From Crocinitomicaceae bacterium TMED16 (GTDB lineage Bacteria > Bacteroidota > Bacteroidia > Flavobacteriales_D > Crocinitomicaceae), in contig NHBV01000022.1 in the NCBI GenBank assembly GCA_002167775.1, positions 1 through 35,065 on the forward strand: a stretch of 35,065 nucleotides of DNA, written 5' to 3'. Below, in pieces: positions 2,674 to 29,420 of the stretch. The first letter of the stretch is position 1. Every line of letters begins with the position of its first letter. A program made the position numbers and the translations under genes. The notes beneath the pieces are model-generated. The model had not been told where the DNA came from, did not search any database, and was given only the letters and a program-made list of their open reading frames with translations.

Positions 2674-3069
2674 ATGAAAATAACTCTTCAGAAACCTGAT
2701 TCAATTGGAGCTCTTGCGAGTATGCTATGTATTGTGCATTGTCTAGTAACGCCGCTGATATTTATTGCACATACATGCTGTAAAGAAGGCTGTGATGCAG
2801 CACCGACTTGGTGGAAAAGTATTGATTTTATCTTTTTAACCATTTCGTTTGTATCCATCTATCAATCGACAAAAACGACAACCCATAGCGCCATGAAACC
2901 AATTCTATGGTCTCTATGGAGTATTTTAAGCTTTCTCATTATCAATGAAAATATAAATCTACTCGAAATTCCAGAGACCTTAAATTACATCACTGCAATC
3001 TCTCTTGCTTTCTTTCATATTTACAATTTAAAATATTGTCAATGTGAAGATGAAAAATGCTGCGTATAA
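2674..3069 (+). CDS. MerC-domain membrane protein
   Basis: A 131-residue inner-membrane protein of the MerC type, with about four hydrophobic helices (roughly 10-32, 50-66, 76-96, 104-120). Helix 1 carries C19-IVH-C23, matching the paired membrane cysteines of MerC mercuric-ion transporters. More candidate ligands follow at C35/C36/C40 and in the C-terminal tail CQCEDEKCC (C122-C130). MerC imports Hg(II) in mer operons, but no merA, merT or merP is near, and MerC-domain proteins in Bacteroidota are commonly found outside mer operons. Its place beside a Fur/Zur-type regulator suggests transport or sensing of zinc or another soft metal; that is inferred. folE begins within or 2 bases after its stop codon. 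Confidence 0.75.
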   Translation: MKITLQKPDSIGALASMLCIVHCLVTPLIFIAHTCCKEGCDAAPTWWKSIDFIFLTISFVSIYQSTKTTTHSAMKPILWSLWSILSFLIINENINLLEIPETLNYITAISLAFFHIYNLKYCQCEDEKCCV

Positions 3070-3071
3070 CT

Positions 3072-3734
3072 ATGAATAAAAATCAAACCGAAATTATAGG
3101 AGACAACCATATCTCTTCAAGTGTTGAAACCCCTATGGTTTCAGAAGCCTTTAAGCATTCAGATGATGAAAAAATTGAAATTATTCAGCATCACTTTAAA
3201 AAAATAATGGAAGAGCTAGGCCTCGACCTCAAAGATGATAGCCTATCTGGAACTCCATATCGAGTGGCAAAAATGTACGTGAAAGAGCTATTTTATGGAT
3301 TAAATCCCAAAAATAAACCTAAGCTGTCTGTTTTTGAAAATAAATACGGCTACAATAAAATGCTGGTTGAGAAAAATATAAATATTGACTCTTCCTGTGA
3401 ACATCATTTCTTACCAATAACAGGATATGCACATATTGCATACGTACCTAAAGACAAAGTGATTGGGTTATCCAAGATCAATCGTGTGGTAGACTATTAT
3501 GCGCATCGTCCTCAGGTTCAAGAAAGGCTTTCTTTACAAATTTTGAGAGAGCTACAAGATAAACTAGATACAAAAGACGTAATTGTCATGATTTCTGCAA
3601 AGCATTTGTGTGTTTCATCTAGAGGAATTAAAGATAAAAATAGCCTCACTACAACAATAGAATACGGTGGCTGCTTTGAAAATGAAAATATTAGAAAGGA
3701 CTTTTTTACGATTGTAGAGGGTGAAAATCTCTAA
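3072..3734 (+). CDS. folE: GTP cyclohydrolase I (type IA)
   Basis: Converts GTP to 7,8-dihydroneopterin triphosphate, the entry to folate, biopterin and queuosine precursors. From the ATG at 3072 the protein has 220 residues with the FolE core at about 35-215. The zinc ligands are all present: C109 and H112 in SSCEHHFLP, and C180 in KHLCVSSRG. The ATG at 3057 would add five residues and overlap merC by 13 bases; I prefer 3072, two bases after the merC stop. Sharing an operon with a MerC-like protein under a Fur/Zur-type operator is notable, because Zur usually controls the zinc-independent isozyme FolE2, whereas this one keeps the zinc site. It may be a second, stress-induced folE copy; the rest of the genome would show this. 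Confidence 0.92.
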   Translation: MNKNQTEIIGDNHISSSVETPMVSEAFKHSDDEKIEIIQHHFKKIMEELGLDLKDDSLSGTPYRVAKMYVKELFYGLNPKNKPKLSVFENKYGYNKMLVEKNINIDSSCEHHFLPITGYAHIAYVPKDKVIGLSKINRVVDYYAHRPQVQERLSLQILRELQDKLDTKDVIVMISAKHLCVSSRGIKDKNSLTTTIEYGGCFENENIRKDFFTIVEGENL

Positions 3735-3763
3735 TTGAGCATATCTCGCGCCAAATTTTAAAT

Positions 3764-3771
3764 TATATTTG
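3764..3771 (+). promoter_or_regulatory. Candidate -7 element upstream of the sugar transferase
   Basis: TATATTTG matches TAnnTTTG and sits 55 bases before the ATG at 3827. No TTG lies at the usual spacing (the nearest, 3735-3737, is 26 bases away), so the match is partial. A weak hairpin (CAAAGA 3781-3786 with TCTTTG 3808-3813, and TAAA 3792-3795 with TTTA 3802-3805) would lie in the leader. Confidence 0.4.
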
Positions 3772-3826
3772 ATTATAACGCAAAGAAGAGATAAATATAC
3801 GTTTACCTCTTTGGTTTAAACTAAAA

Positions 3827-4327
3827 ATGAGGTTTCTCGCTGTGATCATTTTGATTATTTCTACACCGCTATTCATCGTTTTAGCACTTGCCATATATTT
3901 CAAGTCTGGTTCCAAAGTAATATTTCAACAAAAAAGAGTGGGTATAAACAAAACAGAATTTACCATTTATAAGTTTCGAACTATGGAGCAAAATAAAATC
4001 ACATCCCTGGGCAAATTAATCAGGAAACTAGGATTAGACGAGCTTCCTCAGTTATTAAACATCATAAAAGGCGATATGGCTTTTGTTGGTCCAAGACCAT
4101 TGACGCATGAGGATATCGATCGCTTGGGGTGGAACAATGCTTCATATACTAAACGTTGGTCAATAAAGCCAGGTATAACAGGAAAGTCACAGTTGATTTC
4201 AATTTGCGATGCCAGCTTGTCAATTCAAAATGACCTGTGGTATGTCGAGAACCAAAGTTTTTGGGTTGACCTAAATATCTTGTCCAAATCAATTTTAGTT
4301 CCTTTAACCGGAAAACGCACAGCATAA
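3827..4327 (+). CDS. Small bacterial sugar transferase (phosphoglycosyl transferase, PglC/WcaJ C-terminal type)
   Basis: Members of this family move a sugar phosphate from a UDP-sugar to undecaprenyl phosphate, starting the assembly of a surface glycan or glycoprotein oligosaccharide. Visible motifs are a hydrophobic N-terminal re-entrant segment (about 3-24), KFRTM at 49-53, the catalytic Asp-Glu pair D71-E72 in LGLDELPQL, GDMAFVGPRP at 82-91 and KPGITGKSQ. At 166 residues it is shorter than the roughly 190-210 residues of small family members. It lacks the usual KRIFD-like start, and no upstream ATG exists in frame before a stop. It is also trimmed between the KFRTM and DE motifs. Its stop overlaps the next ATG by one base, implying translational coupling. 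Confidence 0.87.
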   Translation: MRFLAVIILIISTPLFIVLALAIYFKSGSKVIFQQKRVGINKTEFTIYKFRTMEQNKITSLGKLIRKLGLDELPQLLNIIKGDMAFVGPRPLTHEDIDRLGWNNASYTKRWSIKPGITGKSQLISICDASLSIQNDLWYVENQSFWVDLNILSKSILVPLTGKRTA

Positions 4328-5349
4328 TGAAAGTATTGGTAAATGGAATCGGAAATATCGGTAAAACCATCTTAGGTATTTTATGTGACTATAAGAGCAA
4401 ACTCAATATTGATGAGATCTATGCGCTAAAGAATACGGCAATAACAGATTGGAATAAAGAAGAGTTGAATATTCTGAGTGATATGGGTATTGTTATTTGT
4501 AGCCGAGAAAATGAGGATTACCTTGATTTAGAGGATATTATTGATCGCATTGACTACGTATTTGATTGCAATGCAAACGGCTTCGGTTTAAAAAACAAGT
4601 ACTGGTACGAGAATTTAACGAACTTAAAAGGTTGCTCAGCACAGGGAAGTGAAAAAGGTTTCGGCATTCCCTTTATGACCGGTATAAACGATGAACAAAT
4701 TGAGGATAAAAAGTTTGTACAGATTGTTTCTTGCAACACGCATGCTTTATCATCAATCATCACAACCTTTGTGAATGATGATCTGAGCAATTTGATTGAG
4801 GGAGATTTCGTCATTGTTAGAAGGTCAGAGGACATTGGAAACCATGAAAGGTTGGTAACTAGCAATGTACTATCACGACATTTAAAAGAAGAAATTGGAA
4901 CACACCATGCGATCGACGTCAAAGACTTATTTTTAACAAAAGATGAAGATTTAAATATTCAATCCTCCGATATAACAACACCGAGTCAGCTCATGCATTC
5001 GGTAAGGTTCAATCTTTATTTGAAAAATAGCATAAGCATCAGTGAAATCAAAAAACTCATTGAGGATAATGAATACATTTCAACATCGTCAAAATTTGAT
5101 TCTAATATTTTATTTGAGCTAGGACGCAGGTACAGCTCGTACGGTCGTCTGTTCTCGCATGCGATAATTAATGACAACAACCTCCTCTTTGATGTGGATC
5201 AGCGAAAATTGAAAGGGTGGGCATTCATACCCCAAGAAGGAAATACAATTTTATCCACAATTCACGCATTCTTATTGCAGGTTAATATGAATAATACGAC
5301 TGACGTAATGAACGCAATCAAAAAAGATTTGGTAAAACCTGCTTGGTAA
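4327..5349 (+). CDS. Archaeal-type (type II) GAPDH-like dehydrogenase, substrate unknown
   Basis: A 340-residue oxidoreductase that resembles the archaeal class of phosphorylating glyceraldehyde-3-phosphate dehydrogenase rather than the bacterial class. Features in order: Rossmann NGIGNIGKT (6-14); DCNANGFGLKNK (80-91), matching the archaeal DATPGGxGAKNK block; AQGSEK (105-110), matching archaeal QGGEK; nucleophile C136 in SCNTHAL (archaeal SCNTTGL); VRRSED (164-169), like archaeal VRRGADP; and H224 in SQLMHSV, aligned with the archaeal TLMHVH. The conserved catalytic Cys and His imply an aldehyde dehydrogenase using a thioester, but the second Thr and Gly of the Cys loop are changed and the substrate may differ. 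The canonical bacterial GAPDH of this genome is at 27969-29420. Coupling to a sugar transferase suggests a role in making or modifying a glycan precursor; that is inference. Confidence 0.8.
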   Translation: MKVLVNGIGNIGKTILGILCDYKSKLNIDEIYALKNTAITDWNKEELNILSDMGIVICSRENEDYLDLEDIIDRIDYVFDCNANGFGLKNKYWYENLTNLKGCSAQGSEKGFGIPFMTGINDEQIEDKKFVQIVSCNTHALSSIITTFVNDDLSNLIEGDFVIVRRSEDIGNHERLVTSNVLSRHLKEEIGTHHAIDVKDLFLTKDEDLNIQSSDITTPSQLMHSVRFNLYLKNSISISEIKKLIEDNEYISTSSKFDSNILFELGRRYSSYGRLFSHAIINDNNLLFDVDQRKLKGWAFIPQEGNTILSTIHAFLLQVNMNNTTDVMNAIKKDLVKPAW

Positions 5350-18954: not shown

Positions 18955-20106
18955 ATGTCCAGGAAAAAAATCATTACGATTGTTGGTGCAAGACCACAAA
19001 TCATCAAAGCTTCAGCAATTAGCCGAGCAATTGGTTTATACTTCAAAGAGGAGATTGAGGAAATCATTGTGCATACTGGACAGCACTATGACCAAAACAT
19101 GTCTCAAATCTTTTTTGAAGAACTGGGTATTCCAAAACCAAGTCATAATATAAATGTGGGTTCGGGAAGACATGGGCAGCAGACCGCTAAGATGATCGAT
19201 GGAATTGAAAAAATACTAATTGAGGAAAAACCAGATTCCGTCATTCTTTATGGCGACACCAACTCTACTATAGCAGGTGCATTGGCCGCTGCAAAAATTC
19301 ATATACCCGTTGTTCATATTGAGGCTGGACTGCGTAGTTTCAATAAAAAAATGCCCGAGGAAATCAATCGAATCGCATGCGACCATATGTCAAGCTTGTT
19401 ATTCTCACCGACAAAACAAGGCATTAAAAATCTTCAAAAAGAAGGCTTCAAACTCAAACAGGAGGGAAAAGCATCAATGGATGAACCAAATATGTATCAC
19501 TGTGGAGATATCATGCTAGACAATAGTATGTATTTTGGTAAAAAGGTAAATGGAGAAAGCCAGCTATTAACTTCATTGAAACTAGAGTTTAATAAATATA
19601 TACTATGTACCATTCATAGGGATAGCAATACAGATATTGACAATAACTTAATTGGTATTCTAGAGGCCCTACTTTCGTGTCAAGAGGAAACTCACATGAA
19701 AATTGTTTTGCCCTTGCACCCGAGAACAAAGGCTAAAATCGAACAATTAAGAGACCAAAATTTTGTAGATCGCTTTATCAAAAATCCAAATATCATCATT
19801 CTTCCTCCTGCTGGGTTCAACGACATTATTGTGCTAGAAAAAAATACAAAGCTGATTATTACTGACAGTGGAGGACTTCAAAAGGAAGCATACTTTTTCA
19901 AGAAGCCTTGCGTTATTCTTAGGGAACAGACAGAATGGGTAGAGATTGTTGAAAATGGGAACGCAATACTAACAGGTGCAGACAACTCAAAAATAAAGAA
20001 TGCCATATCCATTCTGTTGGCAAAAGATGATTTCACCTACCCTGCCCTATTTGGCGACGGAAAAGCCGGGAAATTCATATGCTCTAAAATCTTAAGCGAT
20101 TTATAA
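18955..20106 (+). CDS. wecB: UDP-N-acetylglucosamine 2-epimerase (non-hydrolysing)
   Basis: Interconverts UDP-GlcNAc and UDP-ManNAc, a precursor of surface polysaccharides. The 383 residues show the GT-B-like epimerase fold: VGARPQIIKA (10-19), catalytic D101 in YGDTNS, E123 in HIEAGLRSF, the PEEINR pair E135/E136 and H221 in CTIHRDSN. The DSGGLQKEA block near 305-313 binds the nucleotide. The next gene begins 3 bases after its stop, so it is coupled to a deacetylase-like protein. Non-hydrolysing epimerases act on related UDP-sugars, so a derivative of UDP-GlcNAc is possible. Confidence 0.93.
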   Translation: MSRKKIITIVGARPQIIKASAISRAIGLYFKEEIEEIIVHTGQHYDQNMSQIFFEELGIPKPSHNINVGSGRHGQQTAKMIDGIEKILIEEKPDSVILYGDTNSTIAGALAAAKIHIPVVHIEAGLRSFNKKMPEEINRIACDHMSSLLFSPTKQGIKNLQKEGFKLKQEGKASMDEPNMYHCGDIMLDNSMYFGKKVNGESQLLTSLKLEFNKYILCTIHRDSNTDIDNNLIGILEALLSCQEETHMKIVLPLHPRTKAKIEQLRDQNFVDRFIKNPNIIILPPAGFNDIIVLEKNTKLIITDSGGLQKEAYFFKKPCVILREQTEWVEIVENGNAILTGADNSKIKNAISILLAKDDFTYPALFGDGKAGKFICSKILSDL

Positions 20107-20109
20107 TTG

Positions 20110-21393
20110 ATGCTCATATTTGTAGAAAATGTAAACGACAGACTGTCCTACACCTTTGATTTTATTTTCAAGGAAAGAGACCTTAATTATACATTCACCA
20201 CAAGTGAATCTGAATTTGAAAAATCTTTGGAGATAAAGCTTAATTATTCGAAAAAAAATATTGCAAATACTCCTTCGATAATTCCAAGCACAATGCTTTT
20301 CAATAATCGTATTGAAAATTATACCTTGAATAGATCCCTTTTCAATAAAGAAGATTGCTTGAGCATCAATGGTATATGCGATCCTGTAGCAAGTATATTT
20401 TACATCCTCACGCGTTATGAAGAATACGATTCGTCATTTAAAGATAAGCATGGCAGACATATAGGGAAAAAATCAGTTTTATACAGATTCGGCTGGCAAG
20501 AAAAGGCTATGTGTGATCGTTGGAGTGAAGATGTTTTATCTTTTCTTTCAGCACACACCTCTTTTCGATTTGAAAAGAAAAAATACAGACCTCAAATTAT
20601 TCCAACATTTGATATCGATAAAGCCTACGCCTATAAACATAAAGGCATATTCAGAAACGTATTAGGTTATTTTAAAGACTTTTACACCCAGGATAAAGCG
20701 CTTGTGAAGGAACGTAGGATGGTGCTTACCGGCTCTAAAAAAGATCCATTTGACAATTATGATAAGATTTTTGATATTCAAAGCCGTGGTTTTGATGTCA
20801 AATTATTCTGGATGCTCGGGAACTACGGAAAGTACGATAAAAATATTTCGCATAAAAACCGAAGGCACCGACGCCTCATTAGAAAAATGGATACGATTGC
20901 AACTATTGGGATCCATCCTAGCTATAGGTCAAACTCCAATGAGTTTAATATTCACAATGAAATTGAACGCTTACAAAATATTATCAAAAAGCATGTCAGG
21001 TCGAGCCGTCAGCATTATCTAATGCTTTTTTTACCGAAAACATATCAACAACTTATCGAACAAGAAATTGAGGATGATTACAGTATGGGATATGCAGATA
21101 TTATTGGATTCAGGGCAGGCACAGCACGTTCATTTCATTGGTTTGATCTGACGACAAATAAAAAAACATCACTGAGAATTCATCCCTTCTGCTACATGGA
21201 TGGCAGTCTAAACGAATACCTTCAGCTCAGCACAAATGAGGCGGAGGACAGAATTGCCCAGTTATATCTTGAAGTACAGAACTATGGTGGGCAATTTATA
21301 TTTCTTTGGCACAATGATACAATAAGCGATTATGGACACTGGGCAGGCTGGTCAAAAGTATTAGAGTTTAGCCTTAGACTCGATGAGCTTTAA
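20110..21393 (+). CDS. Polysaccharide-deacetylase-like protein (NodB-fold)
   Basis: A 427-residue protein without signal peptide. The N-terminal part (about 1-155) is a Bacteroidota-type extension. The C-terminal part shows the pattern of a NodB-fold carbohydrate esterase: TFDID (166-170) as metal/base Asp motif, GIHPSY for the metal His, FRAGTARSF for the RxG/FR motif and FLWHND for the final His. The His motif has one clear histidine rather than the usual H-x3-H/D pair, so the metal site may be unusual. The ATG at 20110 is used; a TTG directly before it abuts the wecB stop. Pairing with WecB suggests that it deacetylates an N-acetylhexosamine glycan or its lipid-linked precursor. Confidence 0.8.
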   Translation: MLIFVENVNDRLSYTFDFIFKERDLNYTFTTSESEFEKSLEIKLNYSKKNIANTPSIIPSTMLFNNRIENYTLNRSLFNKEDCLSINGICDPVASIFYILTRYEEYDSSFKDKHGRHIGKKSVLYRFGWQEKAMCDRWSEDVLSFLSAHTSFRFEKKKYRPQIIPTFDIDKAYAYKHKGIFRNVLGYFKDFYTQDKALVKERRMVLTGSKKDPFDNYDKIFDIQSRGFDVKLFWMLGNYGKYDKNISHKNRRHRRLIRKMDTIATIGIHPSYRSNSNEFNIHNEIERLQNIIKKHVRSSRQHYLMLFLPKTYQQLIEQEIEDDYSMGYADIIGFRAGTARSFHWFDLTTNKKTSLRIHPFCYMDGSLNEYLQLSTNEAEDRIAQLYLEVQNYGGQFIFLWHNDTISDYGHWAGWSKVLEFSLRLDEL

Positions 21394-27968: not shown

Positions 27969-29420
27969 ATGGAACTAGAATTGGGTTATGAAAAAGGCTT
28001 GCAATTACATATTGAAAAAGAACGCGCAGCCGTAAAGCTTCAAAGCAAGGTAGGCGAACTACTTTATGAAAAAGGAATAGAGCTCGTACTCTTTCGTCAT
28101 CATTTAACAGATATCACAATTTCAGAGATAATCAACCTTCATGATTATTCACGTAAGGTAGGTAGCAACGAGATTGATGTTTTCACAACCTCTGAGCTAG
28201 CATCCAATTTATTAGAACTAAATGTAATCCCTTCAAAGCTTGATATAGGAAAGCTCGCGAATGAATGGAACGAGGAACAGTCGTCATATTCAGACCAAAA
28301 AGAATTTTTATTGAAGAAGCTTTCCGTTCTTGAGGAGAACCAGGATCAACCTGTTGAGCCACGTGACGTTGTTTTGTACGGATTTGGAAGGATTGGGAGA
28401 CTTGCAGCAAGAGAATTGATCAAACAGGCCGGAAAGGGGCAACAGCTGAGACTTAGGGCAATTGTTACAAGAAGCTCCAAAGATGCAGATATTATAAAAA
28501 GAGCGTCCTTACTTAGAAACGACTCTGTTCATGGCGCCTTTAAGGGTTCTGTCATTGAGGATTTAGAGAAAAAAACCTTGGTAATCAATGGTCAAATTGT
28601 TCACATGATCAGCGCAAATGCACCGGAAGACATTGATTATACGGCTTACGGTATAAACAATGCTCTAGTAATCGATAATACTGGCGTATTCACCAATAGA
28701 GAAGCTTTATCGCGTCATTTAAGCGCAAAGGGAACCGCAAAAGTACTACTTACGGCACCTGGGAAAGAAATACCAAATATTGTATACGGTATTAACCAAG
28801 GAGAACTTGATTTAGAAAATGAAAACATCTACTCTGCGGCATCCTGCACAACCAATGCAATATCACCTATTTTAAAATTAATGAGTGATCAATTCGGAAT
28901 AGAAAAAGGCCATATTGAAACTGTACATGCCTACACCAACGACCAAAACTTGCTAGATAACATGCACAAGAAGCCGAGACGAGGTCGTTCTGCAGCGATA
29001 AATATGGTGATCACCTCAACTGGAGCAGGTAATGCAGTAACAAAAGTGATCCCTCAACTAAAAGACAAGTTAACAGCAAATGCTGTACGTGTGCCAACAC
29101 CAAATGGTTCTTTGGCAATTATTAGCTTGGAATTAAATAAGAAAACAACTGTGGAAGAGGTAAACCAGGTCGTCCACAATGAAGCCTTAAATGGAAATCT
29201 TGTAAATCAAATTTATTACTCTCTTGATAGTGAACTTGTGTCAAATGATATCATTGGGAATACTTGCTGTGCTGTTTTTGATTCTGAAGCAACTTTAAGC
29301 TCAAAAGACGGGAAAAGCATTGTATTATATACTTGGTATGACAACGAATATGGATATACAAAGCAAGTAATTCGTCTTGCTAAATACATCACAAAGGTCC
29401 GTAGAGCAATTTATTATTAA
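27969..29420 (+). CDS. Glyceraldehyde-3-phosphate dehydrogenase with N-terminal extension
   Basis: The canonical bacterial-type GAPDH fold, with Rossmann GFGRIG (138-143), nucleophile C293 in SAASCTTN, the base H320 in ETVHAYTND and the C-terminal block WYDNEYGYTKQV. About 130 residues precede the NAD domain: a helical, charged extension seen in a long GAPDH group of Bacteroidota. The extension has no recognised motif and may mediate oligomerisation or regulation. Which direction (glycolytic or gluconeogenic) and which cofactor it prefers cannot be told. It is separated from rpoD by a terminator, so it has its own promoter. A second, archaeal-type GAPDH-like protein is encoded at 4327-5349. 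Confidence 0.93.
   Translation: MELELGYEKGLQLHIEKERAAVKLQSKVGELLYEKGIELVLFRHHLTDITISEIINLHDYSRKVGSNEIDVFTTSELASNLLELNVIPSKLDIGKLANEWNEEQSSYSDQKEFLLKKLSVLEENQDQPVEPRDVVLYGFGRIGRLAARELIKQAGKGQQLRLRAIVTRSSKDADIIKRASLLRNDSVHGAFKGSVIEDLEKKTLVINGQIVHMISANAPEDIDYTAYGINNALVIDNTGVFTNREALSRHLSAKGTAKVLLTAPGKEIPNIVYGINQGELDLENENIYSAASCTTNAISPILKLMSDQFGIEKGHIETVHAYTNDQNLLDNMHKKPRRGRSAAINMVITSTGAGNAVTKVIPQLKDKLTANAVRVPTPNGSLAIISLELNKKTTVEEVNQVVHNEALNGNLVNQIYYSLDSELVSNDIIGNTCCAVFDSEATLSSKDGKSIVLYTWYDNEYGYTKQVIRLAKYITKVRRAIYY

Follow-up and report, generated by a model that had tools for sequence, protein, structure and literature searches.

A phosphoglycosyl transferase paired with a GAPDH-like dehydrogenase suggests an undescribed route of surface sugar modification

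A small phosphoglycosyl transferase (PGT) gene and the gene of a dehydrogenase resembling type II glyceraldehyde-3-phosphate dehydrogenase (GAPDH) form a coupled, conserved unit in Crocinitomicaceae bacterium TMED16 and its relatives, which suggests an undescribed route of surface sugar modification. The two genes co-occur strictly in the family, and their products retain catalytic-type residues, with a changed active-site sequence in the dehydrogenase and a shortened loop region in the PGT. We consider it somewhat probable that the PGT is wired to a single sugar-modifying enzyme, the priming reaction and the dehydrogenase acting on the same phosphorylated unit.

An overlapping gene pair

The stretch of DNA that was analysed, hereafter the window, is 35,065 nucleotides long. 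The PGT gene (positions 3827-4327, + strand) encodes a small monotopic PGT of 166 residues (PF02397) with a D71 E72 dyad, and the dehydrogenase gene (4327-5349, + strand) encodes a type II GAPDH-like protein of 340 residues with a GxGNIG Rossmann motif, Cys136, His224, Arg165/Arg166, and His193/His194. Both open reading frames lie where a preliminary description of this DNA had placed them, and the overlap of stop and start codons that it had noticed is borne out: the junction reads CATAATG, the TAA stop of the PGT (4325-4327) and the ATG of the dehydrogenase (4327-4329) sharing one base within the TAATG at 4325-4329 (+ strand). The G+C contents of the PGT gene (36.9%) and the dehydrogenase gene (35.6%) are near that of the window (37.1%).

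The genome contains one copy of the dehydrogenase and five places matching PF02397. It also encodes a type I GAPDH elsewhere (protein C9, 370.1 bits against a cut-off of 367.2), in agreement with the earlier view that a canonical GAPDH covers glycolysis. A second GAPDH-domain protein occurs in the window (27969-29420, + strand, 483 residues); its GAPDH domains, at residues 133-457, follow a long N-terminal extension, and it scores 360.3 bits, slightly below the type I GAPDH cut-off of 367.2. Positions 18955-21393 (+ strand) hold a separate small glycan gene pair, namely a wecB-type UDP-GlcNAc 2-epimerase and, directly after it, a protein with distant similarity to VimE, a UDP-sugar deacetylase (173.5 bits, where the cut-off is 440).

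A close relative, 89% identical, is found on a contig of an uncultured Flavobacteriales MAG, and the comparison of the window with this relative gives dN/dS values of 0.10 for the dehydrogenase and 0.11 for the PGT. When positions 3057-5349 of the window are compared with locus L056 of its close relative, synonymous divergence is about 0.6 for the PGT and the dehydrogenase and 0.2 for the adjoining folE, a threefold difference which may reflect recombination.

Distribution and linkage of the pair

Dehydrogenase matches were found in 30 of the 240 family genomes, or 29 once genome G003 is set aside, whose match (L063) belongs to the ordinary type II GAPDHs of bacteria. This PGT, or a piece of it, lies upstream of the dehydrogenase at all 29 loci, so that the closely coupled unit proposed in the preliminary description recurs throughout. 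A whole PGT is directly upstream at 27 of the 29, with overlapping frames in 24 and a gap of 2-6 bp in three. At L046 the overlap is 4 bp if the matched start is used, at L061 the dehydrogenase is truncated by the contig end, at L037 the contig starts within the PGT, so that the C-terminal part of this protein can still be read, and at L062 both genes are in broken pieces. One family genome with 7% contamination (G134) gave two additional partial dehydrogenase matches.

The pair is not specific to one strain, and the same gene order is present in two genomes outside the family. The order sample yielded 26 matching genomes out of 399, 25 of the same family and one (G267) of another family, in which the two genes overlap by 4 bp (L074). 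The phylum sample yielded two out of 395, the window's own genome and G800, a member of another class, where the genes are 22 bp apart and the contig ends within the dehydrogenase (L075). Searches around the two found no further match, G267 being the single one among 6 genomes searched of its family and G800 among 197 of its class. The pair is also patchy within the window's genus, for which five genomes with a dehydrogenase match were listed. Chance adjacency was rejected, as it does not explain why the pair recurs at each of the 29 family loci and in the two genomes outside.

The linkage also holds in the other direction. A profile search detected this type of PGT (245-295 bits, E ≤ 1e-40) in 27 of the 240 family genomes, and all 27 carry the dehydrogenase; in 20 genomes of the same genus that had been selected as dehydrogenase-free, no PGT scored above 124 bits. 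In the trees of the PGTs and the dehydrogenases the main groups are compatible, and L074, from outside the family, falls into the same group in both. Some sequences have no resolved position in the PGT tree and the inner order of the two trees differs for a few members; within the family, the agreement may come from common descent alone.

Since the genes flanking the pair vary from genus to genus, the unit consists of these two genes, and the comparison of neighbours that had been proposed for this pair leaves them as the only constant part. A GalE-type epimerase is found 2-4 genes upstream of the pair in four genera (the one tested has Epimerase and GDP_Man_Dehyd domains) and may be mere synteny. 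In one relative, the gene of a PMT_2-type glycosyltransferase (L037:1187-2716) overlaps the end of the dehydrogenase by 7 bases. Both neighbours fit a glycan role and neither is constant. In the flanks of the family loci no glycan gene is constantly linked except the PGT, and for this reason the pathway beyond the two genes is one that we infer.

Three further origins were rejected. Searches gave no match in phages, one distant type II GAPDH on a plasmid, and, among viral contigs, 8 pattern matches that all failed to encode a relative, which speaks against a phage or plasmid origin. No family was assigned to the PGT or the dehydrogenase by the PADLOC models, and an anti-phage defence system was dismissed. 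The last candidate, that the pair contains an ordinary accessory type II GAPDH, was discarded by comparison with L063, which is such an enzyme (451.2 bits with NF003251, 332.8 bits with TIGR01546), has no adjoining PGT, and is clearly different.

A divergent relative of type II GAPDH

Among models and solved structures, type II GAPDHs are the only strong relatives of the 340-residue protein. Its best matches of solved structure by sequence are the archaeal type II enzymes 1b7g, 1cf2, 2czc, and 2yyy, and the four motifs from which the preliminary description had derived an archaeal type II pattern are all present and aligned with it. The AlphaFold2 model, computed with 24 sequences, has a mean pLDDT of 89 and adopts the type II fold, with Z scores of 34.1-34.9 against four archaeal type II GAPDHs and of about 25 against the type I GAPDHs, which form the next group. 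Foldseek likewise ranks type II GAPDH first, with erythrose-4-phosphate (E4P) dehydrogenase among the nearest folds. The earlier assignment holds as far as fold and motifs are concerned, but not as membership in the family proper, since the protein is 19-25% identical to five bacterial type II GAPDHs and misses both family cut-offs (86.6 bits against 185 for NF003251, 75.8 against 232.9 for TIGR01546). In the tree, 25 pair dehydrogenases separate from the five type II GAPDHs (100/100).

Cys136, Arg165, Arg166, His193, His194, His224, Gln303, and Glu304 are invariant in all 24 aligned dehydrogenases, together with many additional Arg and His residues. By analogy with GAPDH enzymology, Cys136 and His224 would be of the catalytic type, and Arg165/Arg166 and His193/His194 of the anion-site type. 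The active site, Cys136-Asn-Thr-His139 (4732-4743, + strand), reads SCNTH in 23 of the 24 sequences, SCNMH in one, and SCNTT in none: His139 is present in 24 of 24, and Thr occupies the same position in each of the five type II GAPDHs compared. A second difference from type II GAPDHs is a strongly conserved SEDxGNHxR motif (residues 167-175). Residues 168-180, although conserved, have pLDDT values below 50 in the predicted model, which fits a loop that might become ordered on binding a substrate or a partner. Judged by these residues, the dehydrogenase looks active, with an altered specificity.

We regard as unlikely an accessory role as a GAPDH or an E4P dehydrogenase, in which the enzyme would act on a small soluble phospho-aldehyde (glyceraldehyde-3-phosphate or erythrose-4-phosphate) and have no more than a transcript in common with the PGT. 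The retention of the type II fold and of the anion-site-type residues would suit such a role, as would the presence of both GAPDHs and E4P dehydrogenase among the nearest folds. It is at odds, however, with the strict co-occurrence with one type of PGT, with the scores below both type II cut-offs, with the replacement of Thr by His139 and the many more invariant Arg and His residues, and with the type I GAPDH already in the genome.

A PGT with a shortened loop region

The PGT matches PF02397 with 159.9 bits (gathering score 27, E 6.1e-47), and the D71 E72 dyad is found in 22 of the 22 aligned pair PGTs. Its predicted model (pLDDT 92.9) resembles WbaP (8t53, Z 19.6) and PglC (8e37, Z 19.5). A distinctive feature is the stretch between KFRTM and DELPQ, which holds much of the mobile loop and is shortened to 17 residues (residues 54-70; 3986-4036, + strand). 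This length is constant in 29 of 29 pair PGTs, compared with 29 residues in PglC, as counted on the alignment. The stretch has at least 31 residues in 24 of 24 other PGTs read from the window's genome and from 20 relatives lacking the pair, and 29-32 residues in the 17 best-scoring ordinary PGTs of the phylum sample; it is thus at least 29 residues long in the 41 ordinary PGTs measured in all.

According to excerpts of two papers, the mobile loop of PglC (residues 61-81) closes over the donor (PMC10519829; PMC12550135), and an excerpt of the latter ascribes to this loop a role in donor recognition by PGTs (PMC12550135). The short loop of the pair PGTs suggests, at the level of sequence, an unusual donor. 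In a PGT encoded on a Hymenobacter plasmid (L152:4647-5552), which has no dehydrogenase among its annotated neighbours, the stretch is of intermediate length, with 23 residues by manual count; the PGT type is therefore not defined by loop length alone. This plasmid PGT has an additional N-terminal part and overlaps a hypothetical gene upstream. Short loops were not seen among the 25 plasmid records listed out of 1006, in which the aligned span, the only measure taken, was at least 11 residues beyond that of the query.

The alignment of the pair PGTs also reveals Cys127 (codon at 4205-4207, + strand), invariant in 22 of the 22 aligned dehydrogenase-paired PGTs and missing from the two PGTs with a radical-SAM partner described below. 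This distribution, along with the overlapping frames, which suit interacting proteins, would be compatible with a regulatory role, the GAPDH-like protein sensing the redox state or a metabolite and controlling the PGT by binding to it, instead of catalysing a step of the pathway. Such a role seems highly improbable to us, given that the catalytic-type residues are invariant across 24 sequences, as expected of an enzyme. The loss of PglC Arg145 was considered as a diagnostic sign and dropped, since the GR motif of PglC is equally missing there from the large PGTs of ordinary type in these genomes. Elsewhere in the window's genome, two PGT frames on different contigs (L003 and L004) are identical at 195 of 197 positions, owing to a recent duplication or to an assembly or binning effect.

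A second partner enzyme for the same type of PGT

Of 296 genomes of the phylum that were searched with the PGT profile, 50 passed E 1e-38. Two genomes of the same phylum and outside the window's class, G422 and G615, stood out at 198-201 bits, and the remaining 47, the window's own apart, reached at most 150 bits. The stretch is 17 residues long in both, and the PGT gene lies 2 bp ahead of a gene for a protein of 481-482 residues with B12-binding and radical-SAM domains (L149:7873-9872 and L150:6247-8243); the B12-binding match of one of them is just under the cut-off (30.2 bits against 32.1). The two partner proteins are 75% identical to each other, and their best curated relatives are HpnR and HpnJ, far below cut-off. 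The PADLOC models gave a single weak hit for the radical-SAM partner (22.3 bits).

In the PGT tree, the G422 and G615 proteins group with the pair PGTs (93/98), within a subgroup that also contains 14 PGTs paired with the dehydrogenase (98/94), although their exact place is unsure because of long branches and open forks. Their position among the pair PGTs indicates one PGT lineage with two unrelated partner enzymes. Related radical-SAM genes occur on plasmids, where 96 records matched; the four annotated records inspected have no PGT annotated alongside, so the radical-SAM link rests on G422 and G615. In the class of G422, four genomes were searched and G422 itself was the one match.

We read a PGT that stays the same while its partner, an oxidoreductase or a radical enzyme, is exchanged as priming followed by dedicated modification of the primed unit, and a PGT with one modifying enzyme may, by analogy, be a theme common to the dehydrogenase pairs and the radical-SAM pairs, the latter known from two genomes. 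A different arrangement, which we consider quite unlikely, would place the dehydrogenase several steps ahead of the PGT, in the making of a precursor such as a phospho-sugar in oxidised or reduced form, which enzymes encoded elsewhere would activate with a nucleotide, the PGT being specific for the resulting donor. A soluble sugar phosphate would be in keeping with the anion-site-type residues, and the short loop suggests an unusual donor, but no constantly linked kinase or nucleotidyltransferase was seen in the flanks of the pair loci, and the exchange for a radical-SAM partner fits a modifier at the PGT step about equally well.

Proposed mechanism and significance

The mechanism that we favour is modification of the unit handled by the PGT. 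Observed are the unit, its conservation, and its altered sequence motifs; that both proteins are active and share a pathway, in which order and direction they act, and on which sugar, is what we infer. The two genes would constitute a self-contained, co-inherited cassette. At the inner membrane face, the PGT would take from a nucleotide donor either a sugar-1-phosphate or a small polyol or aldose in phosphorylated form and load it onto a polyprenyl phosphate. The dehydrogenase, as a Cys-dependent NAD(P) enzyme, would oxidise or reduce a carbonyl of this unit, most likely at the stage of a nucleotide- or lipid-linked sugar, whose phosphate or diphosphate the GAPDH-type anion site would hold. 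The modified lipid-linked sugar would then be handed on to glycosyltransferases whose genes lie in other parts of the genome.

A broader proposal is possible, which we put forward tentatively: the short-loop enzymes might form a hitherto undescribed plug-in class of PGTs, each with a dedicated modifier, mostly of the GAPDH type and in other cases a B12/radical-SAM enzyme, which would alter the carbonyl or carbon skeleton of a lipid-linked sugar or non-sugar unit on the polyprenyl carrier. The GAPDH fold would then serve glycan priming and not central metabolism.

The preliminary description knew of no role for such an enzyme beside a PGT, and our literature searches, whose coverage leaves out most subscription journals, likewise found no paper describing the pair or a GAPDH with PGTs. 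The folds are known, and presumably so is the principle, whereas the combination was found undescribed. If the favoured mechanism is true, a GAPDH-fold enzyme has moved from central metabolism to the building of surface glycans, and redox chemistry takes place at the first lipid-linked step of glycan assembly, for which our searches turned up no account. The shortened loop and the exchange of partners offer a handle on the donor choice of PGTs, and a unit of two genes is directly testable in a laboratory host.

Comparison with known systems

The dehydrogenase shares with archaeal and bacterial type II GAPDHs (NF003251, TIGR01546) the predicted fold, the Cys-Asn-Thr sequence, the Arg-Arg and His motifs, and the histidine of the LMH motif. 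It differs from them in forming its own clade below the curated cut-offs, in having His139 in place of Thr, in residues 168-184, and in its link to a PGT. Ordinary type II GAPDHs are also found in bacteria (L063, L126-L129), and a search with one of them as query hit 37 plasmid records spread over several phyla. On a Streptomyces plasmid (L128:5004-8207), a divergent type II GAPDH gene overlaps the genes for a ribose-phosphate diphosphokinase and a Gfo/Idh/MocA oxidoreductase, a setting which does not look glycolytic.

The pair PGT resembles the small monotopic PGTs of the PglC type in its predicted fold, its Asp-Glu dyad, and its GPRP and PGITG motifs. It is distinguished from them by a stretch of 17 instead of 29 residues, by the invariant Cys127, and by the lack of constant glycan-gene neighbours.

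Modification of a sugar at the polyprenyl-linked stage is reportedly carried out by the epimerase Gnu, which is said to act on UndPP-GlcNAc. That a single enzyme modifies a lipid-linked sugar after priming is a known principle, which would be the same here, where it is our proposal, and the class of enzyme differs. HpnJ, the radical-SAM enzyme of the hopanoid cyclitol ether, acts on hopanoid-borne glucosamine, according to an excerpt of PMC12583986. It is a distant relative of the radical-SAM partners in G422 and G615 (68.7 and 82.8 bits against a cut-off of 577.6), and its substrate is a hopanoid, in contrast to the polyprenyl carrier proposed for the pair. By analogy, HpnJ and Gnu may both be regarded as precedents for the modification of lipid-borne sugars.
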